In this document: positions 6,308 through 53,940 of the stretch, piece by piece
Numbering within the stretch: position 1 is the stretch's first letter
Layout: every line of letters begins with the position of its first letter
DNA from: an uncultured Bacteroidales bacterium
GTDB taxonomy: Bacteria > Bacteroidota > Bacteroidia > Bacteroidales > Paludibacteraceae
Assembly: GCA_900317885.1 (NCBI GenBank)
Contig: ONIM01000019.1
Span: 62,001-126,000, forward strand
DNA length: 64,000 nucleotides
Direction of reading: 5' to 3'
Translations under genes and position numbers: made by a program
The notes under the pieces: generated by a model
What the model was told of the DNA's origin: nothing
Database searches by the model: none
The model's input: only the letters and a program-made list of their open reading frames with translations

Positions 6308-7966
6308 ATGAATAAACGGCTATTGATATTTGTTCTCTGTCTGGGTGCCAATCTCTTGGCTCTCGCCTACGACGTGGAAATCAATGGTATCTTTTATAAC
6401 CTCAATAACTCTACTCGTACAGCGACTGTCACGCAGGAAGACTATTTTAATACTTCCGCTTATGCCGGTCATGTCGTCATACCCGAACAAATAACACATA
6501 ACGGCGTGCAATATACCGTTACCGAAATCGGAGAATGGGCACTGAGGTACAGTGATGTAGAATCGGTGGTTATCCCTACGACTATTACCAAAATAGGCGA
6601 ACGGGCGTTCGAAGGCTGTCATAGCCTCACCAAGATGTACTACAATGCTGTAAAATGCACTGTCAATAGTTACTGGCTCAAACCGTTAAACTTGCGCGAA
6701 GTCATTTTTGGCGAAGATGTACAATCTGTGCCGAGCGGACTCTTTGCTAACGCCGGCAAACTGAAGGTCGTACGTTTCAACGCCAAGAATTGCAGGGGTG
6801 GAAGTATGTCATCCGCATTGGGATATAATGGCAGTACCGGCAACTGGAGCACGCATATAGACAGCATGTTCATCGGCGACTCGGTGCTGTATATCCCTTC
6901 TAACCTGTGCTACCAAATGGATTCGCTCCACTATGTGCGTATGGGTCAATCCGTTCGTGTAATCGGCGAGTATGCCTTTCGTGCCTGCCCGCGTCTGACC
7001 GAACTGGAATTGCCGCCTATGCTGGACAGTATCATGACCGGCGGTCTGCAGGCTTTAAGAGGCATCAAGGAGTTGCATATCCCCCGTTCGCTCCGTTATG
7101 TAGGACTAATCGGTTTTTCCAGTACCGACAGCATACGGATACACGTGGAGGATCTTGCAGCGTATGCCGCCATCACCTGCGAACATGATGAAGCAAGTCC
7201 GCTATACAATAATTATTTATATGTAGGCGGCCAACGTGTGACAGACCTCGTGTTGCCGGACACAGCCCGAACGGTCGGCAAATATGCCTTCTCCGGGTGT
7301 CTGGGACTTAATTCTGTCACGCTGTCCGACTCGCTCCGCACGATTGAAGAGGGCGGTTTCTACCACCTGCCCAATGTGCAGACGATACGACTGCCCGAGG
7401 CGTGCGAGAAAGTAGGAAAAATGGCATTTTATGACTGCGACTCCATGCGTACCATCATCTCCGATGCGGTCACTCCTCCGCAACTTGAAGCGCAATGCTT
7501 TTACAGATGGTTTGAGTATAACTATACCGGTTTATATTCCCGGTATAATGTGCTGATCGGCTGTTCGGTGGACTCGCTTGCCTATGCTGCTAACAGCAGT
7601 TGGGCGGGATATAAGTTCCGTAAGGAACGCCCGCAAGTAAGTGTAGCAACTGCTGAAGGAGGCATGGCAACAGGAGAAGGAAAGTATGCCTGTGACGAGT
7701 GGGTGACAATCACCGCCGTAGCGGATGAGGGATACACTTTTGTCGGATGGAGCGATGGAGACCAGACAAATCCACGACTTATTCAAGTGAATGGGGATGT
7801 CACGTATGAACCTCTATTCGCGGGAAGCAATCCCACAGGTATTCATACGGAACCCTCGCAGGCAATAAAGAAAGCGGAAAAGCTGATAATCGATAATCAT
7901 CTGTATATACGACGCCAGGACGGAGAAACTTATACTATAGACGGAATGCATGTTATCCGGTTATAA
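6308..7966 (+). CDS. BspA-type leucine-rich repeat surface protein with C-terminal tail tag
   Basis: The 552-residue secreted protein begins with a signal peptide (MNKRLLIFVLCLGANLLALA). From about residue 60 to 410 it carries BspA-like LRR_5 repeats (phrases such as VTEIGEWALRYSDVESVVIP and VGKYAFSGCLGLNSVTL). These are usually involved in adhesion. A bacterial B-repeat-like domain follows (EGYTFVGWSDGD, about residues 440-510). The end, from TGIHTEPSQ through LYIRRQDGETY to the stop, matches the tail shared by six other secreted proteins in this window. The gene lies 12 nt after sdhC and 54 nt before frdA in the same orientation, so it is probably cotranscribed with them; this is an unusual place for a surface protein. 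Confidence 0.82.
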   Translation: MNKRLLIFVLCLGANLLALAYDVEINGIFYNLNNSTRTATVTQEDYFNTSAYAGHVVIPEQITHNGVQYTVTEIGEWALRYSDVESVVIPTTITKIGERAFEGCHSLTKMYYNAVKCTVNSYWLKPLNLREVIFGEDVQSVPSGLFANAGKLKVVRFNAKNCRGGSMSSALGYNGSTGNWSTHIDSMFIGDSVLYIPSNLCYQMDSLHYVRMGQSVRVIGEYAFRACPRLTELELPPMLDSIMTGGLQALRGIKELHIPRSLRYVGLIGFSSTDSIRIHVEDLAAYAAITCEHDEASPLYNNYLYVGGQRVTDLVLPDTARTVGKYAFSGCLGLNSVTLSDSLRTIEEGGFYHLPNVQTIRLPEACEKVGKMAFYDCDSMRTIISDAVTPPQLEAQCFYRWFEYNYTGLYSRYNVLIGCSVDSLAYAANSSWAGYKFRKERPQVSVATAEGGMATGEGKYACDEWVTITAVADEGYTFVGWSDGDQTNPRLIQVNGDVTYEPLFAGSNPTGIHTEPSQAIKKAEKLIIDNHLYIRRQDGETYTIDGMHVIRL

Positions 7967-8020
7967 GAGTACGAGTACTTAACGTAGAAAATAGCAAACA
8001 TATATAAATTCTACCTATTT

Positions 8021-10144: not shown

Positions 10145-10146
10145 TC

Positions 10147-10902
10147 ATGGATCAGTATATTGATATTAAGGTTCGTGTTTGGAGACAAGCAGGACCTAAG
10201 GCACAAGGTCATTTTGAGACCTATGAGCTGAAACACGTTTTCCAAGGTGCTTCGTTCCTGGAGATGATCGATATTCTCAACGAGCAACTCGTTGCGGAGC
10301 ATAAAGACCCTGTTACCTACGATCACGACTGCCGTGAGGGTATCTGCGGAATGTGCTCGATGTACGTTAACGGTCACCCGCACGGACCAGATAGCGCCAT
10401 CACCACTTGCCAGCTCCACATGCGTAAGTTCAAAGACGGCGAGACCATCACCGTAGAGCCGTGGCGTAGCCGTGCGTTCCCGGTAATCAAGGACCTCATG
10501 GTGGATCGTGGTGCGTATGACAAGATCATGCAAGCCGGCGGATTCGTTTCCGTCAACACCGGCGGTGTACCCGACGCGAACGCCATTCCTATCCCCAAAC
10601 CCGTAGCAGACGAGGCAATGGATGCCGCGTCTTGTATCGGTTGCGGCGCATGCGCTGCGGCTTGCAAGAACGGTTCGGCGATGCTCTTCGTTGCTGCTAA
10701 GGTTAGCCAGCTTGCTCTCCTGCCGCAAGGTAAGATTGAGGCAGCTGCCCGCGCGAAAGCAATGGTAGCAAAGATGGACGAGCTCGGTTTTGGTAACTGT
10801 ACCAACACCGGTGCGTGTGCGGCGGAGTGTCCTAAGTCTGTTTCGCTCGCGAACATCGCTCGCCTTAACCGCGAGTTCCTCGCTGCGAAATTCAAAGACT
10901 GA
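10147..10902 (+). CDS. frdB: Fumarate reductase/succinate dehydrogenase iron-sulfur subunit
   Basis: The 251-residue protein links FrdA to the cytochrome b subunit through three iron-sulfur clusters. The plant-ferredoxin-type [2Fe-2S] site is CREGICGMC (from about residue 62). The bacterial-ferredoxin part has [12 protein letters not shown] (from about residue 163) and [12 protein letters not shown] (from about residue 218). The spacing is that of the Bacteroidota B subunit. The gene follows frdA by 2 nt, and its TGA shares one base with the ATG of the next gene. Confidence 0.93.
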
Positions 10903-11939
10903 TGAAGCGGATTCTTCTGATATTATGCGTGGCGGCTGCGTGTGTGGCGCAAGCCGCCACGGCGTTTCCGGACCTCGGTAACGCCAGGATAATTGTACTC
11001 GCAAATAACCTCCAGAACTACTATATCAACTACGACGAGTCCTCACGCCCCTCCTATGACGACGAGCAAGGACTCACCGTCAAGACTCAGCGGATTGTCA
11101 GCATGATGGTCGCCTCCAACGCGGACATCTTTGCGTTCTGTGAGGTCGAGGCGAAACCTGCCTCGCTTGATCGTCTGGTCAGCGAGATCAATAAGCAACT
11201 CGGTTCCGAAGTGTACGCCTCGGTCTATGACGGCATGAATATCGCTACCGATTCATATGACAATGCCATCAAATCGGGCTTCATCTACCGTCTTGCGACC
11301 GTTGAACCTTATGGTTCTAACTACGCCACGACGAGCACCACCTATTACAAACAGGTCATGCGTATCCAGGCGTGGACGGAGAAAGCAACCGGTGAGCGGT
11401 TCACCCTTTCGATGAACCATTTCAAGGCAAAGTCCGACGCTGCCTCCAGAGCCAAGCGAGTGGACAATGCCAACTGGCTGGTGAGCGGTCTGAACTCCTC
11501 CTCAAAGGTCAAAGATCCGGACATCCTCATTATGGGGGATCTTAATGCCGAGATGGACGAAGATTGTATTGATGTTATTGAGAATGCCGGCTACGAAGAG
11601 CAGTTGCTCCGCTACGACGCGTACTCCTATTCGTATATCTATCAGAGTTCGCGCGAACTCATCGACCATGCGTTTGCCAACTCGACTATGGCATCCCAGA
11701 TAACCGGCGCGGCTGTATGGCACACGAATACCTCCGTCTCCTATAACGCTCGCTATTCCGACCATGATGCCGTGGTAGTGGGGTTACGCTTAGGAGAGGA
11801 TCAAGGAGAAGGCTTTGACCAAACTCCCTTCCCTTCAGGGGAGGGCCGGGGTGAGGCTTACAAAAAAATCCGCCACGGACAAATCATTATTATCCGCGGC
11901 GGAGTGGAATACACCATTACGGGGCAGCGTCTTTACTAA
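10902..11939 (+). CDS. Secreted endonuclease/exonuclease/phosphatase-family protein with C-terminal tail tag
   Basis: The 345-residue protein has a signal peptide ([21 protein letters not shown]) and an EEP fold. The family landmarks are CEVEA (metal-binding Glu), MNHFKAKS, IMGDLNAEMDED, LIDHAFAN and YSDHDAVVVGL (catalytic His). The substrate, nucleic acid or a phosphoester, cannot be told. A G-rich palindromic element at 11823-11857 is read in frame as TPFPSGEGRGEA just before the tail GQIIIIRGGVEYTITGQ. The start overlaps the frdB stop (TGATG), so it may be read from the frd transcript. Its 3' end overlaps the convergent pectate lyase gene by 4 bp. Confidence 0.82.
   Translation: MKRILLILCVAAACVAQAATAFPDLGNARIIVLANNLQNYYINYDESSRPSYDDEQGLTVKTQRIVSMMVASNADIFAFCEVEAKPASLDRLVSEINKQLGSEVYASVYDGMNIATDSYDNAIKSGFIYRLATVEPYGSNYATTSTTYYKQVMRIQAWTEKATGERFTLSMNHFKAKSDAASRAKRVDNANWLVSGLNSSSKVKDPDILIMGDLNAEMDEDCIDVIENAGYEEQLLRYDAYSYSYIYQSSRELIDHAFANSTMASQITGAAVWHTNTSVSYNARYSDHDAVVVGLRLGEDQGEGFDQTPFPSGEGRGEAYKKIRHGQIIIIRGGVEYTITGQRLY
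11823..11857 (+). repeat. G-rich palindromic element inside the EEP gene
   Basis: CTCCCTTCCCTT followed by AGGGGAGGG and GGGGTGAGG: a short imperfect palindrome with a G-rich tail, very similar to the element at 28284-28318 inside polA. It is read through in frame. Confidence 0.6.
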
Positions 11940-13576
11940 TTGACGCGCCTGCCGGTAATATCGAAGGTCTTATTGTCGCGAAGGATGAGCAATCGTCCTT
12001 CGCGAATTATTTTACGCGCTGCCGGTTTGAAAACTACCGGTTGGATGCTCTTCGTGGGGGCGTTTCCTTCAATCTGGAAGCACACCTCACTGATCCGTGT
12101 GCCGGTACCTGCCGAGCGCTGGATAGTGAAGGACTTGGCTCCTTCCGGAGCTGTCAACCGTACTATTTCTTTGGCAGAACTTGAGATAGTATAAGTCGTG
12201 TTGGCGTTGTTGTTCCAATGATAAGCGATGGTGTTCTTGTTTTCCTCCCAATTCGGGATAGTCACATCGAACTCTACCGCCTCTATAGACGCAGCGTAAG
12301 CAGAGAAATCAAAGGTGATGTAGTCAGCGTTCTTACCCATGTTGAAGTAGTCTGCCTCCCATGTGCTACCAGTGTTATAGACGATGATCGATAGTTGTCC
12401 GAAATCCGCGGGAATACCTCCGTTCGCTACGGTCGGCTCTGCGCCCTTTGCTAAACTGACACAGCAGTCTCCATCAACGATGATAGGGTCGCCGCCTTCG
12501 CCTCCGCCTCCGCCTCCACCAGGTGTATCTCCGCCTCCGGGTTCCGAGCTGTCACAGGAAGAGGAGACGGTGCCTTCGTTCGTCACGGTCAGTGTGGCTC
12601 CTGCGCCGCAGGTGGCGTTGGTGACAGCCGTTTTGCCGTCTGCGGCTGCTAGTTGGTCGTAACTGTATGTAGGGGCGGCTACGTTACCTTTGTCGGACGG
12701 ACAATTACCAGTGCAGTTAACAAACTTGCAGTAGTTGGTAGTATTATTGAAGCCTTTGTAGATGTTTTTCGCCGAGTTGGCTTTGCCGGCAAATGTACAG
12801 CCCTCGAAATAACATTTTGCATTCTCCGGACCGACGTAATAGTCAGCCACGGAACTGTTCCAGTAACAATTCAAGAAATGCAGTTCGCAGTTGCGGCAAC
12901 GGGTCATACGTTGCTTGCATCCTTCGTCCCACCAGCAGTAGCCATATGTGATATTGTACGTCCCGTCTGATGGTTTGTCGGAGGATGATGACCCTACGAG
13001 ATTGGAGAACCGGTGGTCATCTGCGCCGCCGGAACCACCTGCTTTCGGTGTTTTTAAATACCGGAAACGGCACCATGTGACAGAAATATTGTCCGATAGT
13101 CCTTTTATATCAAAATTTCCATCCATGCCGTCTTGGAAATCGCAATGGTCCACCCATACGTTCTTTGCTCCATCCAAAGTCAGTAAATCTTTTCCGTCGC
13201 AGTCATATGCACCGGGACCCTCGAAGGTAATGTTACGAAGGATAATATTGCTTCCTTTCAGGTACAAGATGCCGGATTGGTCCTTTGTCTGGCTGTTGGA
13301 GATCAGGCGTTTTCCCGGCAGAGCCATGATGGTCAGGTTGCCTTTATCGGTGCTGATTTGGTCGCTAATGGTAATGTTTTGCGTGATAATGATAACTTTG
13401 TTGCTGCTCTTGAGCGCGTTCTTGAATTCGCTCTCCGACTTCACCAGCGTAGGAGTGGCATTGCCTCCTCCGGTAGCGTTCTTGCCATAACCCCATGGAG
13501 CACTTACGCAGTAGTTGACAGCGTTTGCGGATGAAACCATCCAAAACAGACTTGCAATAAATAATATCTTTTTCAT
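11936..13576 (-). CDS. Secreted pectate lyase-like protein (PL1 family) with C-terminal tail tag
   Basis: The 546-residue protein has a signal peptide (MKKILFIASLFWMVSSANA) and a right-handed parallel beta-helix of the pectate lyase superfamily, roughly residues 30-340. VWVDHCDFQDGMDGNFDI (about residues 145-162) is the conserved vWiDH block with acidic Ca-binding residues, and QRMTRCRNCELHFLNCYW carries the arginine expected in catalysis. A Gly-rich linker (GGGDTPGGGGGGG) and a beta-sandwich domain of about 130 residues follow, perhaps carbohydrate-binding. It ends in GRLLILRDNKTFDITGRR, the tail seen on other secreted proteins here. Catalytic activity toward pectate is inferred from the family. 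Confidence 0.85.
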   Translation of the reverse strand: MKKILFIASLFWMVSSANAVNYCVSAPWGYGKNATGGGNATPTLVKSESEFKNALKSSNKVIIITQNITISDQISTDKGNLTIMALPGKRLISNSQTKDQSGILYLKGSNIILRNITFEGPGAYDCDGKDLLTLDGAKNVWVDHCDFQDGMDGNFDIKGLSDNISVTWCRFRYLKTPKAGGSGGADDHRFSNLVGSSSSDKPSDGTYNITYGYCWWDEGCKQRMTRCRNCELHFLNCYWNSSVADYYVGPENAKCYFEGCTFAGKANSAKNIYKGFNNTTNYCKFVNCTGNCPSDKGNVAAPTYSYDQLAAADGKTAVTNATCGAGATLTVTNEGTVSSSCDSSEPGGGDTPGGGGGGGEGGDPIIVDGDCCVSLAKGAEPTVANGGIPADFGQLSIIVYNTGSTWEADYFNMGKNADYITFDFSAYAASIEAVEFDVTIPNWEENKNTIAYHWNNNANTTYTISSSAKEIVRLTAPEGAKSFTIQRSAGTGTRISEVCFQIEGNAPTKSIQPVVFKPAARKIIREGRLLILRDNKTFDITGRRVN

Positions 13577-15247: not shown

Positions 15248-15278
15248 CAAAAGTACACTTTTTTTTGCATATGTGCAA
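15248..15278 (-). promoter_or_regulatory. Promoter of the SpmAB-like gene
   Basis: On the minus strand TTG at 15278-15276 and TACTTTTG at 15255-15248, 20 nt apart. It lies almost against the ATG at 15243. Its -33 region overlaps that of the divergent promoter. Confidence 0.75.
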
Positions 15279-17071: not shown

Positions 17072-18037
17072 GTGAAAAGACGTATTGCGCTTTTGTTGGG
17101 GCTATTGGCCGTTATGACTGCGAGTGCGCAGTTTGACCCGCAAATGGGGCAATATATGTATTTGCAGGCTGCCTACAATCCCGCAGCGGTGGGAGAAGGC
17201 GATCTAATGAAGGTGGCGGGAATGCACCGCATGCAATATGTGGACATCAGCAACGCTCCGATGAGCACTTGGTTCAGTTTTAGTTCGCCGTTTGTGATAG
17301 GCAAGACTTCACATGGTGCAGGAGTGCGGTTTTTGAACGACCGATACGGATTGTTCACTACGCAATCGCTTTATGCCCAATACGCATATCGCCAGAAGTT
17401 AGGAAAGGGATATTTGAGCGTAGGATTGGATCTGGGATTTGTGAATGTAGGATTTAAAGGCGATTCGGTGAACCTTAGTAAGATGGGTGATGATTATCAC
17501 GAGGCGAACGATGAAGCCATTCCGACGGGCAGTAAATCGGGAATGAAGTTTGATATGGGGATAGGCGCTTACTATTGTACACCGGTTTGGTGGGTTGGAG
17601 TTAGTTACAGTCATTTGCTTCGTCCGCAGATCGATTGGAGCGACGGGACGACGGGAGTACAGCAGATAGTGACTCTGGCAGGAACGTTGTACGCCACCGG
17701 CGGTTATCGGTTTAGACTGAAGAATCATAAGGAGTGGGTATTGACACCGAGTGCCATGCTGATGAGCGACTTTAAGAGTTGGGATTTGAACTTAACGCTG
17801 ATGTGCGATTATAAAGACCGGTACCGGTGGGGATTGGGTTATCGTATATTAGGAAGTGTAAATATATTATTAGGAATAGATATAATATCCGGGCTGCAGT
17901 TGGGCTATAGTTGCGAACTGCCCACCAATAAACTGCTGCTTGAGAGTTATGGGAGCCATGAGATATATTTGGCATATGGATTTGATATCCTGAAGCCCAA
18001 GAGAACGAATAAATATAAATCAATTAGATACTTGTAA
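17072..18037 (+). CDS. porP: Type IX secretion system outer-membrane protein PorP/SprF
   Basis: The 321-residue protein starts at GTG 17072. After a signal peptide (MKRRIALLLGLLAVMTASAQ) comes FDPQMGQYMYLQAAYNPAAVG, the hallmark of the PorP/SprF family, followed by outer-membrane beta-strands. PorP is required for T9SS-dependent secretion and in some Bacteroidota for gliding. porK starts 2 nt downstream. Confidence 0.92.
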   Translation: MKRRIALLLGLLAVMTASAQFDPQMGQYMYLQAAYNPAAVGEGDLMKVAGMHRMQYVDISNAPMSTWFSFSSPFVIGKTSHGAGVRFLNDRYGLFTTQSLYAQYAYRQKLGKGYLSVGLDLGFVNVGFKGDSVNLSKMGDDYHEANDEAIPTGSKSGMKFDMGIGAYYCTPVWWVGVSYSHLLRPQIDWSDGTTGVQQIVTLAGTLYATGGYRFRLKNHKEWVLTPSAMLMSDFKSWDLNLTLMCDYKDRYRWGLGYRILGSVNILLGIDIISGLQLGYSCELPTNKLLLESYGSHEIYLAYGFDILKPKRTNKYKSIRYL

Positions 18038-18039: not shown

Positions 18040-19386
18040 ATGAAAATGAGTAAGATTTTGCCGATCATCGCTTTGGCGTTGGTACTGGCGAGTTGCAACA
18101 AACCGGCCGGTGAGCTTGTAGGAGCTCGCAAGTCTACTAACTTTAAGGAGGCTAATCCTTATGGAATGCTGTTTATCAAGAAGGGTAGCTTTATGATGGG
18201 AGCCAATACTCAGTCTGCTGTTTTCGAGCAGCCGGATAATGTAGTAATGGTTACTGTTGACGCTTTCTGGATGGACGAAACAGAGATTACCAACAACGAG
18301 TACCACCAGTTCGTGGACTGGGTTCGTGATTCTATCGCGTTCACCAACCTGATTGCTGCCGGAATGACGGATTATGCTGTTCAGCCGAAGGATGAAGACT
18401 TCGACGAAGAGAACTTCCGCATCAATTGGAGCAAGAAAGTACCTTGGAAGAGCAAGGAAGAGGACGTAGTGGACGCTCTGTCTTCTATGTATTATTCCGA
18501 TGGCCGTTTTAATACGAATAACCTGCACTATCGTTATAGTTGGGTAAATATGGACGAAGCGCTGCCGCAACGTAATAAATTCGATGTGGCTACCAGTACT
18601 TATCCTCCCGGAGCTACAGCACGTGTAGATACCTTCTGGGTAAATGCCAATAACGAGATTTGCGATTCTACGATTATTCGTCCGCTTCGTGAGCCGAAAG
18701 ACCTGCTTACGGAGAAGATTATCTGTATCTATCCGGATACCTTGGTTTGGGCGCGTGACTTCCAATTCTCGTACAACGATCCGTTGCTGCACATGTATTT
18801 CAAGCACCCGGGATACTCCGAGTATCCGGTAGTAGGTGTGACTTGGGAGCAGGCGCATGCATTCTGCAACTGGCGTACCAATCTCTTTAACATGCACTCG
18901 CCGATTGAGGCAAACGAGTATCGTCTTCCTACGGAGGCTCAGTGGGAGTATGCTGCGCGCGGAGGCCGCAAACTGGCTATGTACCCGTGGGGTAGTAACT
19001 ATGCCCGTGACGGCAAGGGTTGTTTCTTTGCTAACTTCAAGCCCTATCGTGGTGCTTATAATGATGATACCGGTACTACGACAATGAAAGTAGCGCAGTT
19101 CCGTCCGAATGATTTCGGTCTGTTCGATATGGCCGGCAACGTAGCTGAGTGGACAAACTCGGCATATCAGAGTGCAGCCAATTCGCATATTCATGATTTA
19201 AACCCGGATTTCAGTTACATGGCTCGTAAAGCTGATCCGGATATCCTGAAGCGTAAAGTCGTTAAAGGTGGTAGCTGGAAGGACATCAGTTACTTCATGC
19301 AATGCGGTGTACGTACTTACGAGTACCAATACGAGAGCCGTCCGTATATCGGTTTCCGTTGCGTCCGCGCGTACATAGGCGATTAA
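18040..19386 (+). CDS. porK: T9SS outer-membrane lipoprotein PorK (GldK)
   Basis: PorK and PorN form the periplasmic ring attached to the outer membrane. The 448-residue protein has a lipobox (LVLASC, Cys near residue 20) and a formylglycine-generating-enzyme (FGE-sulfatase) fold with KGSFMMGANTQ, DETEITNNEY, YPVVGVTWEQAHAFCNWR, RLPTEAQWEYAARGG, FGLFDMAGNVAEWT and RPYIGFRCVR. It has only a structural role in T9SS systems studied. The gene belongs to the porP-K-L-M-N order. Confidence 0.94.
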   Translation: MKMSKILPIIALALVLASCNKPAGELVGARKSTNFKEANPYGMLFIKKGSFMMGANTQSAVFEQPDNVVMVTVDAFWMDETEITNNEYHQFVDWVRDSIAFTNLIAAGMTDYAVQPKDEDFDEENFRINWSKKVPWKSKEEDVVDALSSMYYSDGRFNTNNLHYRYSWVNMDEALPQRNKFDVATSTYPPGATARVDTFWVNANNEICDSTIIRPLREPKDLLTEKIICIYPDTLVWARDFQFSYNDPLLHMYFKHPGYSEYPVVGVTWEQAHAFCNWRTNLFNMHSPIEANEYRLPTEAQWEYAARGGRKLAMYPWGSNYARDGKGCFFANFKPYRGAYNDDTGTTTMKVAQFRPNDFGLFDMAGNVAEWTNSAYQSAANSHIHDLNPDFSYMARKADPDILKRKVVKGGSWKDISYFMQCGVRTYEYQYESRPYIGFRCVRAYIGD

Positions 19387-41318: not shown

Positions 41319-43028
41319 TTATCTCTTGATTAGTTGTCCTTGAGGAGAATAAACGGCTCCGTTGCGGCGGATCTGTATCTGTCCGTTGACAAGTATCTTG
41401 ACGGCTTTCGATTGTTCCTTGACGGCTTCTATATCGAGTGCCGTGGCATCAAATCCTAATTTGTTATCCATCCATGAGATGCGGTTGGACATATAGTTCC
41501 GTACGTTGTTCACCTCTGCTTCGTATGACCCGTGAAGACGCGGGTTCTGGTGTACATACTGGTTCATGATCTTCCACCGGATGAAGTTCAGCCGCTGTGA
41601 TTGCTCCAGCATCTGTGCCTGCTCGTCGATATAATCCAGCATGGACTCTTCGGTAAAGCCCGATTGGCGGATTTGCGCCCAGAGATCTTTCAATTGTTGC
41701 TTGGCATCGGCGTCCTGCACCACGATCTTATCCACTAAACTCTTCATGTAACCGGCACTGCTGCCGCCGGAGCGGTAGATATAATCCGTCTTGTTATTCA
41801 CGGGGTACGTGCGGTTGTCGTTGTCGAACGCCAGGTCAAAATCCCAGCACGGACCTACATACATCGTATCGTTCGAGCGGTGTTTATACATATACACGCT
41901 CCAGTACGTATCCGTATTGCCGGACACTTCGCCCACGAGGAAATGTCGCAGGAAGGTATTGAGATCGAGTTTTTGTTTCCATCCGTTACCGGTTTCGACG
42001 CTGCTATAGAAGGTGTTGATATACTCTCTCTGTTGCGATGTGATCTCGTCCTCATCCGGCGATTTGATGGAGACGGGCGTACCGTTGCTGGAATAGAACA
42101 CACCGTTCTGGTTCGGTTCGTCTCCGGCATAGGCATCTACCTCAATCAGGTAACCTCCTGTGAGCGCTTCGCCGCTGTTGTCCTCGGGCGTCATTTCCGT
42201 TATATCCACGCGGTTTTTACGCACCTCTATCTGGTCGCAAAGCTGGTACGTACCTTTGTAATCGCCGTTCAGTACCACATCCACGTACTGGCAGAAAGGC
42301 GTATAAGGCATCCCGAAGCGGCGGCTGAGTTCAAAGGCTAACTGATTGCGCATCAGCGTCTTGTCGCCGTAGTTATTGATGAGTGTCCATTTCTTTGCTT
42401 TTGCCGGAGAACCCAATACTTGCTGCTTGTGGGCAAACTTGATTCGGTACGGTTTCTTTGGAAAAGTACGGGACGCATTGCCGCGTTCGCGGATAGTGGC
42501 GGTATCGGCTAAGAGTTTCGTGCCGTTATTGGAGATGATGGAGATATAGCAATCTATCTCATGCTCTTTGTCGTACGGCGCCTGGTTGTTGACCGTATGA
42601 ATGACTACGGTCGGCAGGTTCGTCAGTTGCGGCAGATGGCTGTCATCACCAGCTCCGGCTACACCGCGGAACTCCAGCGCCTGAATCTTATACTCGCCTT
42701 TGAGCTCCGATTTGAGATAACGCACGTACCGGAACCCGCGCGAGCATTGGACGGTCGCATAGTTCATCTGGTTGGCCTGCGACGCACCGTCATGCATATA
42801 CAGCGGGATAGCGTCCATAAAATCCGGACTGTTGGCTCCCTCGAAGAGACCTAACTCTGCAGTCGTCGTACTCAAGGGATTCCATCCTACGGACGTGATC
42901 ACATATTGTGAACCTAAATCCAAACCACGCCATCCGTCGCCGCTGAGCGCCGTACCGGTGAGAACTTGATCTGCATACCCTGCCTGCAGAAGCATGCACG
43001 AAAATAAAAATACTGCTATTCGTTTCAT
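41319..43028 (-). CDS. Secreted CotH-kinase-family protein with C-terminal tail tag
   Basis: The 569-residue protein has a signal peptide (MKRIAVFLFSCMLLQAGYA), a discoidin-like first domain (WRGLDLGSQYVITSVGWNPL) and a CotH domain from about residue 140 to 500. The CotH landmarks are RTFPKKPYRIKF, RNQLAFELSRRFGMPYTP, GTYQLCDQIEVRKNRVDI, YLIEVDAY and the metal-binding GPCWDFDLAFDN. CotH proteins are atypical kinases; the substrate here is unknown. The end, GQIQIRRNGAVYSPQGQL, is the shared tail. ATG 43028 was chosen because the promoter -7 box is at 43059-43066, making upstream in-frame codons non-transcribed or leader. Confidence 0.86.
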   Translation of the reverse strand: MKRIAVFLFSCMLLQAGYADQVLTGTALSGDGWRGLDLGSQYVITSVGWNPLSTTTAELGLFEGANSPDFMDAIPLYMHDGASQANQMNYATVQCSRGFRYVRYLKSELKGEYKIQALEFRGVAGAGDDSHLPQLTNLPTVVIHTVNNQAPYDKEHEIDCYISIISNNGTKLLADTATIRERGNASRTFPKKPYRIKFAHKQQVLGSPAKAKKWTLINNYGDKTLMRNQLAFELSRRFGMPYTPFCQYVDVVLNGDYKGTYQLCDQIEVRKNRVDITEMTPEDNSGEALTGGYLIEVDAYAGDEPNQNGVFYSSNGTPVSIKSPDEDEITSQQREYINTFYSSVETGNGWKQKLDLNTFLRHFLVGEVSGNTDTYWSVYMYKHRSNDTMYVGPCWDFDLAFDNDNRTYPVNNKTDYIYRSGGSSAGYMKSLVDKIVVQDADAKQQLKDLWAQIRQSGFTEESMLDYIDEQAQMLEQSQRLNFIRWKIMNQYVHQNPRLHGSYEAEVNNVRNYMSNRISWMDNKLGFDATALDIEAVKEQSKAVKILVNGQIQIRRNGAVYSPQGQLIKR

Positions 43029-43058
43029 AAGATTGCGTAACATCGCCATTTCCGACGA

Positions 43059-43089
43059 CAAAGGTACTGCTTTTTTTTGATATATGCAA
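43059..43089 (-). promoter_or_regulatory. Promoter of the CotH-DUF6377 operon
   Basis: On the minus strand TTG at 43089-43087 and TACCTTTG at 43066-43059, 20 nt apart. Confidence 0.78.
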
Positions 43090-44258: not shown

Positions 44259-45115
44259 ATGAAAAAGACATTGACTTTGTTCCTTGCATTGTTCATTGGA
44301 ATGATGACGTTTGCAACGGACTGGAGGCGGATGGAGCCGGAGACGGCGCTTATGCCAATAAGTACAAGGTCGCGGCTGCTTTTGGCCAGAATGTGATTAA
44401 CATTCAGCAACCGGGTTTTGCAGCTGCGCCGGGTATCTATACGAATTTCCCTGCCGGTATCTCTTCTTGTACGCTCAATGAGGGCGACTACGTGATTGAC
44501 GGCGCAGGAATGATTTTGTATCTGTCGGCTTTTACAGCGAAAGTAACCGCTGTGTCTGTATTAGCAGGTGGAGTAAGTTATGATTTTCAAGTCTATTTCG
44601 AGGATGGAACAGGTGAGATTCCCGATGATCCTCAGCCGGGCGATGATCCTCAGCCGGGAGAACTGACGCCGGCTACGTATCATGGCTCAGAGGTCATTGC
44701 CGTCAGCGGAACGGATGTGACTTTCACTTGGTCTATCACCCGTAATGCCGATGCTACCTTGACGTTTGAACTCAAATGGTCGAGCGACATCGTTGGTTCA
44801 GTTCCGCAGGTATGTATCAATGGTGCATTTACTACGATGCCGGCGCAGGAGCGAGTAGCGCGTTTCACAACTACGGCTACTTTTGTGGATGGCACGACGC
44901 TGAACGATACGTTCTTCTACATGGCATATGCAGGTGATGCTGCGCGTATTGAGATCACCGGTTACACTGTAGGCGCAAGCAACGACGAACCGCGACCCAG
45001 TGCAATAGAGAATATATATAACGAATCGCGCACGCATAAGGTGATTGAGAACGGAATGTTGTATATCATCAAGAACGGCATCCGTTATAATGCTCTTGGT
45101 GTAGAAATGAAATAA
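44259..45115 (+). pseudogene. Secreted beta-sandwich protein with tail tag, frameshifted near the N-terminus
   Basis: ATG 44259 opens a signal peptide (MKKTLTLFLALFIGMMTFATDW), but that frame stops at 44396. The rest of the protein (LEADGAGDGAYANKYKVAAAFG onward, stop 45115) lies in another frame that joins at about 44321. The paralogue at 45136 has an extra SGIDWL there. The junction ACGGACTGGAGGCGG fits loss of about 19 nt between two CTGG copies. The remaining part has an N-terminal module shared with the next gene, a linker with repeated DDPQPG, one copy of unnamed module B (about 44680-44985) and the tail GMLYIIKNGIRYNALGVE. Function is unknown; it is probably a surface protein. Confidence 0.75.
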
Positions 45116-45135: not shown

Positions 45136-48100
45136 ATGAGAAAAAAATTAACTTTACTCTTCGCGCTTTTGTGCGCAAGTGTGATGGGATTTGCCATTGA
45201 TTGGAGTGGCATTGACTGGCTGCCAGGCAGTAATAGTACTTATAAAGTGGTAGTGTCACCTGCAGGCCCTAATATAATGCAAGAACAAGATTGGGCTGGT
45301 AAAAGGAGATTGTTCCTTGGATCCATCATTATTCGATACACAAGGAGCCGGTAAATTCTACTATACTTCTGCATTCCTCCAACAAGAGACAGAATTTACA
45401 CAAGTACATAACGGCACAACTTATACTTTTACTGTATATAATGACAAACCGGTAACAGTACCTTCGACGAAAGCTCCAACTCCAATTGTCCCTGCTTCCC
45501 GGGTAAAGGGAGTGTATAGTGAGTATGAATTTAATACAGGATATTCTTTCGCTAATTGGTGTGGTACAGTGAAGCAATCAAGCGCTCTTGTTCAGGGGCG
45601 TTCTATTCCTTTCTACCAGATGGGAAATAATTGTTTTGGTATGGAGTATGGTCATTTTGATGTCTCAAATATGACTCAGATTCATCTTGATATATGGACA
45701 GAAAACACATTTGATATCAGATTCTATTTGATATCTCCGGGGCACGAGACTTATTATACGATCAATTTGACTGGTGGTGTGTGGAATACGGTAGATATAC
45801 CCTTATCGACATATACTGCTGCAAGTGTAGATTTGAACGATGTGTTCCAATTTAAATTCGATTATCCTTCAGAGGCAAATCAAACTATATTTGTAGATAA
45901 TATCTATTTCTATGCGGAAAGCGATGTTGATCCGGATCCAACCGACATTGAAGATACGAATTTTGCTCTGCAATCAAAGGGAGCTATTGCATATGGTTCT
46001 TCCGTAACGGGAGCAAACTATCCTGCAAGAGCAATAGATGGCGACAACAACACCATTTGGGAATCTATTTATGATACAGATCCTCAAATATTAGCGGTGG
46101 ATTTGGGACGGCGTCGAAATCTAAATTTGGTCAAAATTCTCTGGGGCAACCAGTGGTCAAGCGAATTTTATATTGAAACATCCAATAACGCAACCGATTG
46201 GACAGAAGCTAAGCATGTGACCGGCAATACGGACAATTATAGCCACCAGGAGCAGAGCTTTGATTTGAATAGTAAAGTAACTGCTCGCTATATTCGTTTC
46301 CGCGGTATCCATCGAGGAAACGGATGGGGTTATACTATCAAAACGTTTACTGCGATGTTATCCGGTGTCCCTGTTCTGACATCTGTCGATTTATCTTCAG
46401 ATAAGAACATTGCTAAAGTGGGAACCTACGCAACGCTTACCGCAAGTCCCAAAGACCAGAATAGTTCGGCTATCGCTGCTACCTTATCTTATGAAGTTTC
46501 TCCGGCTGATGCGGGTCATGTGACAGATGGAAAATATTATCCTGAGAAATTTGGTCTTGCAACGATTACTGTTACTGCAGAGGCCGGTGGAGTACAGGTG
46601 ACGAATAATGTACAAATATGGGGCGTTACAAGCGATAACTTGGCTTGGAATAAGACATCTGAGGCAGGATATAATCCAAGTAATCAAGGCGAGATAAATA
46701 CAAAGGCTAATGACGGGGACGAAAGCACTTTGTGGGTTACATGGGAGAATGCATCCGTTGCTGATGAGTGGTGGTATGTAGATTTAGGTACTTCGTATGA
46801 TATTACTGGAATCAATGTTTCATGGGGAGGAGATTATTCTACTAACTATATTCTGCAAGTCCGTGCAGAAGCCCCGTCTCCAGACGATAAGGCGAATGAT
46901 GAGGCGTGGACGACATTAGCAACAGTTACTACTGCCAGTGCTAATAGTTCTGTGTTTAGTCAAGTAACGGGGACAGGTCGTTATGTACGTTTCCATTCTC
47001 TTTCCAGATCATGGTGGCAATGTTTCCGCTTACGTGAACTTCAAGTATTTGGTTCTGAATCATCTACCCCGACAAAATCCGTTTCCGTTGCAGTAAATGA
47101 CCCGCTAATGGGAACGGCAACAGTGAAGCAAAATGGTGATCCTGTTACAGAGGTAGAAACCGGTTCTACGGTTACGTTTAGTGCCGTAGCTAATGACGGA
47201 TATATATTTGTGGATTGGTCGAATGGCAACACCAATGCCACTTTCAATGCAACAGTTGATGCTGCAATGAACCTCACCGCTAATTTCCGTGCGTTAGGTA
47301 CGACCTATTGCAACACGCTCGTTCATTCTAGTAATAGTGGTCAAGAGCACGATGCGTATGTTACTATGAAACGTTCGGGTGAGAATGAGTATCAGTTAAT
47401 AGTACGTACTACAGAGGCGTTAAGCAATTTTGGCGGAACAAACTTCTATAAACCTAATAATGTCCATGTGATAAATATTCGAGATCAAGGAGTATTGTCG
47501 AATAACAATCATACATTGACGGTAACTTTTAGCTGTGACAAAGAACCATACATGACAGATCCGCTTTACGTGGTGTTACAAGGTGGTTTTGAGGCTCAAT
47601 TCCCTCAATTGACGAATATCGAATACTCACAACCTTGTGCAGATCCGGAGATTACGGCTATTGAGTTGAACAAGACCGAGGCAACTCTGGAAATGGGTAA
47701 CACCCTGACGCTGGTGCCGACCTTCACTCCGGCATACATGAGCGCAGATATCACTTGGCAGACTTCCGACGCAGATGTAGCTACTGTGGATAATGGTGTA
47801 GTAACGGCTAATGCCATAGGTACCGCAACTATTACAGCGGAAACGTCTAATGGTAAGACTGCTACTTGCGCTGTAACCGTAGAGCCGATTACAGAGAAAA
47901 CATGGTGGGGAACTCAAACAATTACGGACTGGGATCCTGATATGGATGTGATGTGGTCTGTTACCCGAAATGCCAACAAGACACTGACATATACAGTTTA
48001 CTTTGGAGGTGATGCATCCGACAAAGTAAAGCAAATTAACAATGGTGAATGGCATGGCTTGGTTGGCTATGATGATGTAAACCGCGTAGCTTCATACACA

Positions 48101-49516
48101 ACAGAAACAACGTACGAAAAAGGTACTAAGATTAAGCCTGACCATTTCTTCTACTTTGGAGGTCCACGTATTGAACTTGCTGATGTATATGTGGTTGGTT
48201 CGGAGAATGAGCGTCCGTCAACTGCTGTGGAATCTGTAGAAATATCTTCTACTGCAGCAAGTCTTCTCCCTGAAGAAAATCTCCAATTAACTGCTACTGT
48301 ATTACCATCGTTCGTAGAGAACAAAAATGTTAATTGGTCATCTGATAACAAGAGTGTAGCAACTGTGTCTAACACTGGTTATGTAACAGCAGTCGCTGAA
48401 GGAACTGCTCACATCACTGCTACTTCTGTTGCTGATGGTACAAAGTCAGCTACGTGCACTGTAACGGTAGTAGGTTCTATAACATCTGCTACCTGGTATG
48501 GTTATAGTACCGTTAGTCCTCTAGAAGGTTTGACCGCATATACATATTCTATTACACGCGGGACGGACCATAAACTAACATTCACGATGACTACTGATAA
48601 AAACGTAGTTGGATATGTTAGTGGTATTGAGGGTGATGTGACAGGAGCATTTGGTGGATATGATGCAGTAAACCATACTGGCACCTTTACCACAGCAGGC
48701 ACTTACACAGACGGCGCAGAACTTCATCTCCGATTAACTTTCGCGAGTGCATCTTATGGGGCTCCTGCATACAATTTCTCCTATACCGTTGGTTCCTCCA
48801 ATGCTGCCCTGCCGCAGGCAGTTGCTGTTGACGAGGAGAAAGATAACACCGCTATCCTTACAACCTATGATGGTCAAACAGTTATCGGTGTATTGGGTCG
48901 TTCCTTCACAGCCGGCAATCTCTACACCCTCGTGCTGCCGTTTGATGTGGATGCCGCACAGACAGCTGCTAAGTTGCCGGGACATCTGACCAAACTGCAG
49001 AATACCATCGTCAAGGAGAACCAAGACCTGCGTATCAATTTCGTGGATGTCAGTGCGATTGAGGCAGGTGTGCCTTATCTCTATGAGCCGAGTGCAGCGG
49101 TGGCTAATCCGACCTTCGAAAGTGTGGAGGTTAGCGCTACGCTTAATCCAACGGTTGCAGATAGTTATGCGAAATACTATGGTATCTACGCGCCGATGGA
49201 TGGTGATGCCCTGCACGCTAAAGATAATGCTTATGTCTTAGGTCCGGATCAGTACTTGTATGCCGTTTCCGACCTACCGGCAAACCAGACGATGCTTGCG
49301 CTCCGTGCGTATTTCGTGCTGCACTTCCCACCAAGTGCCGGTGCCGCTCCGAGACGCGTCGCGCAAGTGGTATTCAATAGCCAGGAGACCGAAGTTGCTA
49401 CCGGTATTGAGAATACAATCGATAACGAGCAGAATGCGAAGATCCTACGTGACGGACAACTACTGATTATCCGTGAGGGTAAGATGTATAACGCTCAAGG
49501 ACAATTGATTAAATAA
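45136..49516 (+). pseudogene. Large multidomain secreted protein with tail tag, one frameshift near 45301
   Basis: ATG 45136 opens a signal peptide (MRKKLTLLFALLCASVMGFA) and DWSGIDWLPGS. The frame is lost at the A run at 45301-45304; reading three instead of four A restores AGKGDCSLDPSLFDTQGAGK and gives about 1,460 residues. Domains by position: module A 45500-45920; F5/8 type C (discoidin) 45950-46360 and 46630-47055; an Ig-like domain 46375-46620; B-repeat 47070-47300; Big_2 Ig-like domains 47645-47890 and 48215-48475; module B 47900-48210 and 48480-48800; a C-terminal region 48805-49390; tail GQLLIIREGKMYNAQGQL. Glycan binding or adhesion is likely. The frameshift may be a sequencing error. 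Confidence 0.8.
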
Positions 49517-49544
49517 TCTATGAACCTCTAAATTTGACACTATT

Positions 49545-49682: not shown

Positions 49683-49702
49683 TCCCTCTCCATCCCTTTC
49701 TA

Positions 49703-49733: not shown

Positions 49734-49791
49734 TTGGTATAAGGAGATTGTAAAATCCGAATTAGCAAAAAAAATTTTTCTTACAAAGTCC

Positions 49792-49822
49792 TTGCATAAT
49801 TCAAAAAAATGTACTACCTTTG
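49792..49822 (+). promoter_or_regulatory. Promoter of the rhuM-like gene
   Basis: TTG at 49792-49794 and TACCTTTG at 49815-49822, 20 nt apart, 42 nt before ATG 49865. Confidence 0.78.
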
Positions 49823-49864
49823 CAGTCGAAAATCGGAAACAAAAAGATAACACATTCACCCTAT

Positions 49865-50884
49865 ATGTCCAAACAATTACAAATACGCAACTCGACGGCT
49901 GAGTTCTTAATTTTCCAAGCCGAAGACAAGGCGCAAGGTGTACAAGTCTTCTACAAAGACGAGACCATCTGGGCAACGCAAAAAGCCATGGCTGCGCTTT
50001 TTGATGTGGATAGATCTGTGATTACCAAGCATCTAAAAAACATCTTCGAGACAGGAGAATTACAACAAGATTCAGTTTGTGCAAAATTTGCACATACTGC
50101 CGATGATGGCAAAACATACTCCACGCAATTCTACAAACTGGATGCCATCATTTCTGTCGGTTATCGTGTGAATTCCATCCGTGCGACCCAGTTCCGGCAG
50201 TGGTGTACAGCCGTGTTGCGGCAGTTTGCTATACGCGGCTATGTTATCGACAAGAAACGCATGGAGAACGGTGCCTTCATTAGCGAGGATTACTTCGAGT
50301 ACCTGTTAGCTGAGATCCGCGAGATCAGGCTATCCGAGCGCCGATTCTATCAGAAACTGACCGACATATATGCAACGGCTATCGACTATAATCTTGATGC
50401 ACCCACTACGCGCGAGTTCTTCGCGAAAGTGCAGAACAAGATGCATTATGCCGTACACGGACAAACGGCAGCAGAGTTGATTGTGTCGCGTGCGAATGCG
50501 GAGAAAGAGCACATGGGCTTAACCACATGGGAGAAGGCGCCAAACGGCAAGATCGTCAAACCCGATGTGAGTGTGGCGAAGAACTACCTCAATGAGTTGG
50601 AATTGGAAGATATGGGTCGTTTGGTCAACTCCGTTTTAGATACCGCAGAACGTATGGCGAAACGGCATATCCCGATGACGATGGAGGATTGGGCGAAGCG
50701 TATTGATATCATCCTGGAAGCAAGTGATGACCGGATACTGACCGACGCAGGGTCCGTCTCTGCAGAGCAAGCCAAAGAGTTTGCAGAGACGGAGTTTGAG
50801 AAATACCGCATCATCCAAGACCGCCTGTTTGAATCGGATTTCGACAAGTTTGAGCTACCGACACTACCCTTTGACGAAAAATAA
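49865..50884 (+). CDS. RhuM-family protein
   Basis: The 339-residue cytoplasmic protein carries VFYKDETIWATQKAMAALFDVDRSVITKHLKNIFETGEL, FYKLDAIISVGYRVNSIRATQFRQW and AVHGQTAAELIVSRANAEKEHMGLTTW, the order seen in RhuM proteins first noted on a Salmonella pathogenicity island. The first block resembles a DNA-binding helix-turn-helix. Function is unknown; these genes are often in variable, island-like regions. ATG 49865 was chosen because the promoter -7 box ends at 49822. Confidence 0.85.
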   Translation: MSKQLQIRNSTAEFLIFQAEDKAQGVQVFYKDETIWATQKAMAALFDVDRSVITKHLKNIFETGELQQDSVCAKFAHTADDGKTYSTQFYKLDAIISVGYRVNSIRATQFRQWCTAVLRQFAIRGYVIDKKRMENGAFISEDYFEYLLAEIREIRLSERRFYQKLTDIYATAIDYNLDAPTTREFFAKVQNKMHYAVHGQTAAELIVSRANAEKEHMGLTTWEKAPNGKIVKPDVSVAKNYLNELELEDMGRLVNSVLDTAERMAKRHIPMTMEDWAKRIDIILEASDDRILTDAGSVSAEQAKEFAETEFEKYRIIQDRLFESDFDKFELPTLPFDEK

Positions 50885-50887
50885 ACC

Positions 50888-51188: not shown

Positions 51189-51218
51189 GCCCCTCCCTCA
51201 CAAAGGAGGGGCTTTTTT
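51189..51218 (+). terminator. Rho-independent terminator
   Basis: GCCCCTCC, 8-nt loop, GGAGGGGC, then TTTTTT: a perfect 8-bp GC-rich stem and a T run. Confidence 0.85.
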
Positions 51219-51317
51219 ACGTACTTTTTTTGCACCAAAATTTGAGCTAAAATGCAGTATATCAATGAAATCATATATACTTTTCGTACTTTTGTGTTTT
51301 ATAACATATTTTGAGTT
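51213..51317 (+). promoter_or_regulatory. Shared upstream module, copy 2
   Basis: TTTTTTACGTACTTTTTTTG at its start, CGTACTTTTGTG (51285) and AACATAT ending at 51309, 8 nt before the -33 TTG. It corresponds landmark by landmark to 43124-43228. The sequence from 51349 to 51420 is an AT-rich leader with nothing else recognisable. Confidence 0.6.
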
Positions 51318-51348
51318 TTGGAGGTTCTAAAAAAAAGTAGTAATTTTG
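51318..51348 (+). promoter_or_regulatory. Promoter of the discoidin-domain secreted protein
   Basis: TTG at 51318-51320 and TAATTTTG at 51341-51348, 20 nt apart; ATG 51421 follows after a leader of about 70 nt. Confidence 0.78.
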
Positions 51349-51420
51349 CACTCGGAATTAGCTAAGCTAAAACAGCAATCAACTAATCAACCATATCGTT
51401 TAACAAAAAAATTCATTATC

Positions 51421-53940
51421 ATGAGAAAGATTTTCTTTTTGGTCGCTTTCTTAAGCGCCAGTATCATGAGTTTTGCAGAGGATGTCAACTTTGCGTTGGC
51501 TTCTCAAGGATCGAGTGCAACCGCTTCGAGCGGTGATGCCGGCGCAGCCATTGATGGCAATCAAGGCACCCGTTGGGAGAGTGCGCAGACGGATGCCGAG
51601 TGGTTCCTGCTCGACATGGGTCAGAGCCGCACGTTCAACTATTTCAAGATCAACTGGGAAGGCGCTTATGCCAAGCAGTTCCAGCTGTTGGCTTCGGCTG
51701 ACGGTGAGACGTTCAGCCCCATTTACACCGAGAGCAATCTGGATCATTCCGGTTGGCAGAAGATTTACCTGGAGACGGCAGTCACGGCTCAGTACATCAA
51801 GTATCAGGGCATCGAGCGTGCTACGCAATGGGGACAGAGTTTCTACGAGTTCGAGGTGTACTATCTGAGCGAGGCACCGAAGACTTACACCCAGATCGAG
51901 GGTCTGACGATTGTAGCTGCTTCGGAAGGCTATAACGATGTCAACCGCGTGCTGGACGGCAATGCCGGAACCGAGTGGCAGGGAAGCCCGACTAACGGTA
52001 CTGACGGCGATGAGGCTGCGCGTACTTTTGACGCTTGGTTCGTTGTAGATCTCGGCGGTCTGTATGATGTAGATAAAGTAGATATTCATTTTGAAGGCGC
52101 ATGTGCGCAAGATTACCATCTGGATTTCTCGGAGGACAACACCAACTGGGCGCTGGGTTACAATTTCGTAGGTGATCAGGGTGTATATGGCCGTACGGAT
52201 GAGGTGACTGAGCTCAACAATAATACTAAAGTGCGTTATGTCCGCTTCTGGAGCACCAAGGCTGCTACGCAGTGGGGAATGAAGATCTTTGAGTTCCGCG
52301 TATATGGTGCAGCATGGGTTCCGGCAGCAGATACCGAGAAACCGGTGATGGTCAGCGCTTCGCTGGTTAGCAAGAACTACAACAGCGCAGTGATCGCTGT
52401 ATCGGCTACGGATGATAACGAGGTGGCTAAGTACCGTGTAGTAGATCTGTCGCAGAGCTTTGATGCTTATTTCGCTCCGACAAACGGCGAGATTACGGTA
52501 ACGGGTCTCAATCCGAACACCGCATACTATTTCCTGATCTACGCAGTAGATGTAGTGAACAAGGAGTCTGAGTACTCCAAAGCCGTAGGGGTAACGACGG
52601 ACGTGTACGCCAGCGAACCGGCAGCAGCCTGTGCGGCTCCGACATGGCCGGCAGACCAGGTAAAGGCTATCTACAGCCCGACTTATAACGCAGACTGCGG
52701 TTTCGGCGAGTGGGGTAGCGGTACGCAGGTATCGGATACAGAGTATGGTAAGAAATATGTGCTCGCAGGCGGCGGTTATTTCGGAATGGTAGATTTCGCT
52801 ATCAACGCATTGATCATGGATACGCTGCATTTCGATATCTGGATTGCAGAAGATGCTACTATCGGCGTCGTACCTATCTGGGGCGGCGATGAGCAACGCG
52901 TGACGGTAAGCCTGAAGGGTCAGCAGTGGAACAGCATCAACATCGCGAAAGAGCAATACACGGCTATCACCGACTGGAGCAATATCTATCAGGTGAAGAT
53001 CGACCAGGCGTCCAACCTGACTTTCTGGGTTGGTAACGCATATTTCTACCGCGCAGAGCCGATTGTTGACGACGAGGCTCCGACGAATGTACAGGGCTCC
53101 ATGGCAAGCGCAGGTTACTTCAGCGTAACGCTGGCATTGAGCGCAGATGATAACCTGGGCGTAGTGAACTTCTCCGTGAAGAACGGCGAGACAGAGGTAG
53201 CTACCGGCGCAGGTGCTGCAGGTGCAACGGTGAATGTTGTTGTACCGAACTTGCTGCCGAATACCGAGTATAACTTCTCGATAATCACTACCGACTCCAA
53301 GGGTAATGCCGCAGAGGCTATCCAGGTAGCCGCTACTACGGCAGTTGCTCCTGCAGCGGCTCCGAAGCCGAGCTTTACCGGCAAGAGTGCAGTAGCCATC
53401 TTCTGCGACGAGTTAGACGGCGGTCCGGATATCGCTATCGGCGGTTGGGGACAGAGCACTATTGTAACCAACGGCGAACTGGCTGCAGGCGACCACGTAC
53501 AGTATATGAGCAACTTCAACTACCTCGGTTGGGAACTGACTCCGGCGGTTAACGCTGCCGATATGGAGTATCTCCACTTGGATATCTACAGTACGAGCAT
53601 GACTTCTATCAAGGTTACTCCGATTAGCCCGGGTAAGGAAGGTGTTTACGCAGTGAACCTGACTTCCGGCGAATGGAACTCGGTAGATGTACCTCTGAGC
53701 GCTTATTCCGCAAACGGAATAGCATGGAACAATATCTTCCAGTTCAAGTTCTTTGACGGTGCTCCTGCAGGCGGTGACCTGTTTGTAGATAACGTCTATT
53801 TCTACAAGAACGTAGGTCAAGGCACTTCCGTTGTCAACAACGAGATAGGCGAAAAAGCAATCAAGATGATCGAGAATGGTCAGTTGATTATTATCCGCGA
53901 CGGCAAACGCTACAACGTAACGGGCGTACGCGTTAAATAA
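51421..53940 (+). CDS. Secreted multidomain discoidin/FN3 protein with C-terminal tail tag
   Basis: The 839-residue protein has a signal peptide (MRKIFFLVAFLSASIMSFA), two F5/8 type C (discoidin) domains (residues about 20-160 and 165-305), an FN3-like domain (about 310-400, TGLNPNTAYYFLIYAVD), module A (about 405-545, AIYSPTYNADCGF to WVGNAYFYR), a second FN3-like domain (about 550-640), a second module A (about 650-795, ending FVDNVYFYK), and the tail GQLIIIRDGKRYNVTGVR. It probably binds carbohydrate at the cell surface. It lies directly before the glucan locus and may belong to it, although a hairpin separates it from susC. Confidence 0.85.
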   Translation: MRKIFFLVAFLSASIMSFAEDVNFALASQGSSATASSGDAGAAIDGNQGTRWESAQTDAEWFLLDMGQSRTFNYFKINWEGAYAKQFQLLASADGETFSPIYTESNLDHSGWQKIYLETAVTAQYIKYQGIERATQWGQSFYEFEVYYLSEAPKTYTQIEGLTIVAASEGYNDVNRVLDGNAGTEWQGSPTNGTDGDEAARTFDAWFVVDLGGLYDVDKVDIHFEGACAQDYHLDFSEDNTNWALGYNFVGDQGVYGRTDEVTELNNNTKVRYVRFWSTKAATQWGMKIFEFRVYGAAWVPAADTEKPVMVSASLVSKNYNSAVIAVSATDDNEVAKYRVVDLSQSFDAYFAPTNGEITVTGLNPNTAYYFLIYAVDVVNKESEYSKAVGVTTDVYASEPAAACAAPTWPADQVKAIYSPTYNADCGFGEWGSGTQVSDTEYGKKYVLAGGGYFGMVDFAINALIMDTLHFDIWIAEDATIGVVPIWGGDEQRVTVSLKGQQWNSINIAKEQYTAITDWSNIYQVKIDQASNLTFWVGNAYFYRAEPIVDDEAPTNVQGSMASAGYFSVTLALSADDNLGVVNFSVKNGETEVATGAGAAGATVNVVVPNLLPNTEYNFSIITTDSKGNAAEAIQVAATTAVAPAAAPKPSFTGKSAVAIFCDELDGGPDIAIGGWGQSTIVTNGELAAGDHVQYMSNFNYLGWELTPAVNAADMEYLHLDIYSTSMTSIKVTPISPGKEGVYAVNLTSGEWNSVDVPLSAYSANGIAWNNIFQFKFFDGAPAGGDLFVDNVYFYKNVGQGTSVVNNEIGEKAIKMIENGQLIIIRDGKRYNVTGVRVK

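Follow-up and report, generated by a model that had tools for sequence, protein, structure and literature searches.

The window analyzed here, a 64,000-nucleotide stretch of DNA from an uncultured Bacteroidales bacterium of the Paludibacteraceae (GenBank assembly GCA_900317885.1, contig ONIM01000019.1, positions 62,001 to 126,000), encodes seven secreted proteins of different folds that share a C-terminal tail. The original prediction, made from the DNA letters of the window, proposed that this tail is a sorting tag of the type IX secretion system (T9SS), a reading that the analyses described below support. All seven tails are present, each closing its open frame, and each was matched by a hidden Markov model (HMM). 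On the forward strand the tail ends a BspA-type leucine-rich repeat (LRR) protein with Pfam LRR_5 domains (gene, 6308-7966; tail, 7829-7963; HMM match at C46:69829-69957), an ExeM/NucH-like nuclease that matched the NCBIfam ExeM_NucH model below its cut-off (10902-11939; tail, 11811-11936), a protein whose body had no match in Pfam or NCBIfam scans (44259-45115; tail, 44990-45112), and two multidomain proteins assigned by Pfam, one with F5/8 and Big_2 domains (45137-49516; tail, 49388-49513) and one with F5/8 and fn3 domains (51421-53940; tail, 53815-53937). On the reverse strand it ends a pectate lyase (Pfam Pectate_lyase_4; 11936-13576; tail, 11939-12064) and a CotH protein (Pfam CotH; 41319-43061; tail, 41322-41450). 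The nuclease and pectate lyase genes are convergent, with a four-base overlap at the stop codons (11936-11939).

The most divergent of the window tails, that of the LRR protein, does not follow the residue pattern first proposed (NHLYIRRQDGETYTIDGMHVIRL). Signal peptides had been assigned to all seven proteins, and five of them carry the signal peptide in the same frame as the tail. In the neighboring genes 44259 and 45137, the signal peptide is out of frame with the body and tail (seen at window 44259-44340 and 45137-45320), which is a frameshift, either real or an assembly error. The lipoproteins of the Sus locus had been noted to lack the tail; none is found on SusC, SusD, or the products of the next three genes.

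Matches to NCBIfam models confirmed that the window encodes PorP and PorK to PorN. On the forward strand are genes for a PorP/SprF family protein (17072-18037; TIGR03519, 210.9 bits), the PorK/GldK ring lipoprotein (18040-19386; TIGR03525, 516.3 bits), the PorL/GldL and PorM/GldM motor proteins (19440-20366; TIGR03513, 163.0 bits, and 20411-21982; TIGR03517, 407.7 bits), and the PorN/GldN ring protein (21996-22943; TIGR03523, 157.1 bits). A second PorV-family barrel on the reverse strand (4323-5420; NF033709, 127.6 bits over C46:66347-67333, equivalent to window 4347-5333) is a candidate PorQ, the name first given to it. The same genome also has PorV (369.1 bits), PorU (1023.9 bits), and Sov/SprA (2674.9 bits), and this PorU itself carries a full T9SS C-terminal domain (CTD).

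The genome that contains the window is a Bacteroidales metagenome-assembled genome of 2.12 Mb in 89 contigs and is 88.8% complete. An HMM built from the seven window tails (profile A1) found the tail at 97 places in this genome, the seven inputs included, and 88 of these had E values of <=1e-3. The matches are restricted to the C terminus, as expected for a sorting tag, with 96 of the 97 ending no more than 11 residues from a stop. The sole exception, on contig C19, is followed by 32 residues. Chance can therefore be excluded as the source of the tail. A crude signal-peptide scan in its strict form, which demanded a Met start no later than residue 60 of the open frame, was positive for 76/97 tail proteins versus 22/485 shuffled copies. 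When the scan was loosened to 200 residues, one of 10 cytoplasmic window genes was positive. This was polA, with its match at residue 11, a position that the strict form would accept too. The loosest scan was positive for 85/97 tail proteins, one of them gene 44259, with its real signal in the other frame; among the 12 negatives, five run off the start of a contig and one is the frame-broken gene 45137. Unrelated cargo proteins used the same codon in their tails at 14133 of 33638 shared residues versus 12913.9 expected. This excess is small, so recent copying would explain few tails at most.

The tail is about 40 residues long and consists of a variable linker in front of a conserved block, K-[IVF]-[LI]-x-[ND]-G-Q-[LI]-x-I-x-[RK]-x-G-x-x-Y-[NDT]-x-x-G-x-x-[VIL]-[KR]. 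The Y...G part of this block corresponds to motif B of the type A CTD. Anchoring on motif B was possible for 92/97 tails; the other five could not be anchored. Relative to the motif B Gly, Lys is found at -20 in 79/92 tails, Gly at -15 in 73/92, Ile at -11 in 82/92, Tyr or Phe at -4 in 87/92, and Gly at position 0 in 90/92, with the values at -11, -4, and 0 partly imposed by the anchor, which required G/D and Y/F/V/L/C. Val, Ile, or Leu follows at +3 in 85/91 tails. The stop comes 3 or 4 residues past the motif B Gly in 76/92, and the final residue is Lys or Arg in 52/92.

An S/T-x-I-E/H-like phrase had also been noted ahead of the tail; it is real and resembles a PorU cleavage site. In the linker, the motif [G/A]-[IVLMF]-[E/D/N] was found 29 to 49 residues from the end in 65/90 tails; in four control stretches upstream of it, the counts were 14, 12, 10, and 14 per 90. 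Of 67 motif-bearing tails, 59 had T, Q, or E right before the motif. The corresponding stretch of full-CTD proteins from two genomes of the same genus, G101 and G111, contained the motif in 39/80 proteins versus 18 in a control stretch. PorU sites in Porphyromonas gingivalis have T/E/D/N before the cut and G/A/S after it (PMC10202324), and the cleavage motif of Prevotella intermedia is PT/GI (PMC11969387 section 3.5). The linker motif fits these sites, and T, Q, or E followed by G/A-I-E looks like a putative PorU-type cleavage site. From this site to the end of the protein, 57 of the 67 motif-bearing tails have 36 to 42 residues, and 24 of the 67 reach 40. The commonest layout has 27 residues from the first residue after the cut to the motif B Tyr.

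AlphaFold2, run on the nuclease with 15 relatives, modeled residues 301 to 318 of the linker as disordered, followed by strands at 319-324, 327-332, and 335-338, with a pLDDT of about 61 to 66 in the tail. Run on 17 tails alone, it returned the same three strands with a mean pLDDT of 87.5. Searching solved structures with the tail gave nothing meaningful (best E value, 0.46), nor did a Foldseek search with the 42-residue tail model (best E value, 1.0). Inspection by eye revealed no transmembrane-like segment in the tail. The linker of the window nuclease contains, in frame, a palindromic REP-like repeat (CCCTTCCCTTCAGGGGAGGG..., window 11825-11860). Judging by a crude protein pattern, 9/97 linkers seem to contain inserts of this kind, and one copy of the repeat adjoins the PorU gene.

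Scans of 66 of the 97 tails against Pfam and NCBIfam gave no match to a T9SS domain, including TIGR04183 and PF18962, the models for the type A CTD. No type B (TIGR04131) or type C match was listed for the 66 tails or the seven window proteins, with the presence of TIGR04131 in the library unchecked. The first reading could not match the tail to the type A signature; profile comparison shows that the tail is related to type A, specifically to the front half of that domain. When a profile of 87 of the 97 tails was compared by hhalign with a profile of 67 of the 80 full CTDs from G101 and G111, the score was 24.9 (P, 3.1e-5; probability, 72.9), versus a best score of 14.8 for 60 column-shuffled tails and 8.4 for the reversed tail. 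The alignment placed cleavage motif on cleavage motif and the Y...G of the tail on motif B, at the front of the CTD. Pairwise BLAST of three tail proteins (C34:82273, C46:55856, and C34:69031) with full-CTD homologues gave alignments that extend over the tail. At the end of the tail protein, 2, 5, and 2 residues stay unaligned, compared with 39, 37, and 39 at the end of the CTD protein. A stretch of 37 to 39 residues matches the back half in size. The tail has neither motif D nor motif E, and there is no sequence room for them behind motif B. As judged from these comparisons, the tail corresponds to a type A CTD that stops after motif B, the essential beta3-beta4 loop. It was placed outside TIGR04183 because it neither matched the family model nor contained motifs D and E.

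Another reading considered and rejected was circular permutation, with the GQLxI..K part of the tail being motifs D and E moved ahead of motif B. By eye, GQLIII does resemble motif D (GxYIV). However, the CTD back half alone aligned with the tail at a P value of 0.028 over 5 columns versus 8.2e-6 for the front half alone. A permuted template scored 24.1 (P, 2.8e-5) versus 24.9 (P, 3.1e-5) for the unpermuted CTD, and it was matched over its front-half part only, so that nothing was gained from the moved back half. The cleavage motif is also in its normal place ahead of the tail. Permutation is thus very unlikely.

The full CTD and the tail were found at the same place on homologous cargo. The window's genome has TIGR04183 matches at 9 places, none coinciding with the 97 tail places. 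Tail proteins were compared with 80 proteins from G101 and G111 (TIGR04183 E value, <=1e-3; 10 weaker rows omitted), genomes that also encode 11 and 9 tails, respectively, at E values of <=0.001. A homologue among the 80 was found for 33/97 tail proteins (E value, <=1e-15), in some cases over shared domains only, such as Big_2. In 11 of these 33, the alignment stops at the boundary with the tail or CTD; for example, a protein of 2106 residues aligned over 2045 positions with 43% identity. Eight of the 11 boundary cases were reciprocal best hits within the compared sets, which held signal-bearing proteins only. Conversely, among the G101 and G111 proteins with a match in the window's genome, 8/40 had as their best match one of its full-CTD proteins, including PorU and one nuclease, indicating that the full signal is retained by a small number of proteins. 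The genome has a second Exo_endo_phos nuclease, L107 (G000:C84:21749-23663), that ends in a full CTD; thus, a single genome has both signals on members of one enzyme family.

Database relatives of the window nuclease all end in the tail (15/15). They are labeled Bacteroidales or (6/15) Paludibacteraceae, and several are from cattle, sheep, yak, or deer. The tail is a truncated domain, as a decaying, functionless remnant of the CTD would be. However, in an alignment of 16 nucleases with identities down to 37%, residues K321, G326, and G341 are invariant despite a linker that varies in length and sequence, and the same tail positions are conserved over unrelated cargo. A functionless remnant is therefore extremely improbable.

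Within the genus of the window's genome, the tail was found in all 120 sampled genomes, with at least 24 scored candidates in 117. Other genera of the family had 1 to 13 tail matches in 38/180 genomes, weaker matches that were not read singly, and an order-wide sample had the tail in 7/197 genomes, six of these with 1 to 3 copies. TIGR04183 matches were counted in 30 chosen genomes: nine tail-rich genomes of the genus had 3 to 14, G101 had 39, G111 had 41, and 18 genomes from 18 other genera had 12 to 90; the remaining one, G241, is considered below. This inverse abundance of tails and full CTDs within the genus counts in favor of the half-CTD reading set out below. PorV was present in 297/300 family genomes and 191/197 order genomes. 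The order sample agrees in direction with the expectation that the tail would be lacking from T9SS-negative genomes, in that all 7 tail-positive genomes have PorV and none of the 6 PorV-negative genomes has the tail; another family, chosen as T9SS negative, comprised 3 genomes only.

These distributions also bear on the possibility that the tail is a tag of another export or processing system, unrelated to T9SS. Exosortase- and rhombosortase-type systems recognize short C-terminal tags on many exported proteins, and the failure of all 66 scanned tails to match a T9SS domain would be in keeping with such a system. However, the tail has no evident transmembrane-like segment, homologous cargo proteins carry a type A CTD at the place of the tail, and PorV accompanies the tail throughout the order sample. 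A tag of an unrelated system is thus highly improbable.

Among known T9SS signals, the type A CTD (TIGR04183, PF18962) is like the tail in its C-terminal position on signal-peptide proteins, in having a cleavage motif before a beta domain, and in motif B; it differs in having motifs D and E and about twice the length. Types B and C are likewise C-terminal T9SS signals, type B (TIGR04131) having five conserved motifs within the final 100 residues and type C being a 100-residue region (PMC10202324). CTDs can be specific to a species (PMC11285876 abstract). The closest published case is the set of short CTDs in P. intermedia (Ye et al. 2025, PMC11969387), which like the tail coexist with long CTDs. 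There are 48 of them, five with determined cleavage sites, and from the cleavage site they are 40 to 51 residues long in the seed set and 43 to 55 in the final set. It is possible that the tail is such a short CTD and thus already described. Both are short, with one three-stranded sheet (predicted for the tail), the Tyr and Gly of motif B, frequent basic ends, and a cleavage motif with Ile at +2. However, P. intermedia short CTDs continue from motif B to motif D (GxY/N plus Ile) and then E, whereas most tails stop just past the motif B Gly. Their cleavage-to-motif-B spacing is 6 to 11 residues, in contrast to the 27 of the commonest tail layout, which is closer to P. intermedia long CTDs, with 19 to 30 residues between motifs. 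According to the text of that paper, the short CTDs have all three motifs, B, D, and E, with both spacers reduced, whereas the tail keeps a long first spacer. The description of the P. intermedia short CTDs sets them apart from the tail, and identity of the two is unlikely.

The tail is C-terminal, it is found on Sec-exported cargo of many folds in a genome with a T9SS core, it is preceded by a PorU-like motif, and it occupies the place of a CTD. These features support its proposed role as a T9SS sorting tag, and it is very probably a half-CTD that serves this lineage as its main signal for T9SS sorting. Within the genus, most recognized cargo carries the half-CTD in place of the full CTD, which is retained by PorU and a small number of other proteins. 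Cargo would pass the inner membrane via Sec. At the Sov translocon, PorV would bind the tail, a unit of three strands that includes the motif B loop. PorU would then cut before G/A-I-E, releasing a peptide of about 36 to 42 residues, and the new mature C terminus would be joined to surface polysaccharide. A signal with motif B only is plausible because, in a PorV model, the motif B loop lies deepest in the barrel (discussed in PMC11969387). The frequent terminal Lys or Arg right after motif B may partly substitute for motif E or for the C-terminal end.

Several observations weigh against this interpretation. In P. gingivalis, RgpB remains periplasmic when the final two residues are missing, and the signal of HBP35 was mapped to its last 22 residues (both PMC11285876 section 2.2); the tail lacks this C-terminal end that P. 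gingivalis needs. Without the cleavage motif, the tail core aligned with the CTD over 11 to 12 columns (P, 6.5e-5 for the front half and 2.5e-4 for the whole CTD). Nearly all sampled genomes have T9SS, so co-occurrence of the tail with PorV decides little. In G241, both signals are scarce, with 3 tails and 10 full CTDs. The LRR and CotH pairs of the window, which are among the 11 boundary cases, were not reciprocal best hits, and the window nuclease was withdrawn as a case of signal replacement when the G101 and G111 nucleases proved nearer to the second, full-CTD nuclease. In a PorV tree, the full-CTD genomes G101 and G111 fall inside the genus, together with genus g10 (support, 98/96), and the deep branches are weak, which leaves the ancestral signal and the direction of change unsettled.

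On balance, we lean toward the wider proposal that the T9SS cargo code has been remodeled throughout the genus, such that most recognized cargo carries half-CTDs ending at motif B, PorV and Sov read cargo without motifs D and E, and PorU keeps a full CTD. A literature search that covered a minority of the subscription papers and no preprints found no earlier description of a half-CTD. If the proposal is correct, the tail would be the shortest natural T9SS signal met in that search. It separates the two halves of a domain previously studied by mutation, making the question of whether motif B is enough testable with natural sequences. With 9 TIGR04183 matches versus 97 tails in one genome, current models would overlook the majority of T9SS cargo in gut bacteria of this kind, and a tail profile would help find surface proteins of rumen bacteria.

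Two further features were observed in the window. A RhuM-family gene (49820-50884) lies between two tail-bearing genes. A 36-base repeat (CAAAGGTACTGCTTTTTTTT...) is present in five copies with 72 to 100% identity, at 15248, 30633, 35586, 39711, and 43059. Most copies are in or near intergenic gaps, and the repeat is perhaps a promoter-region element.

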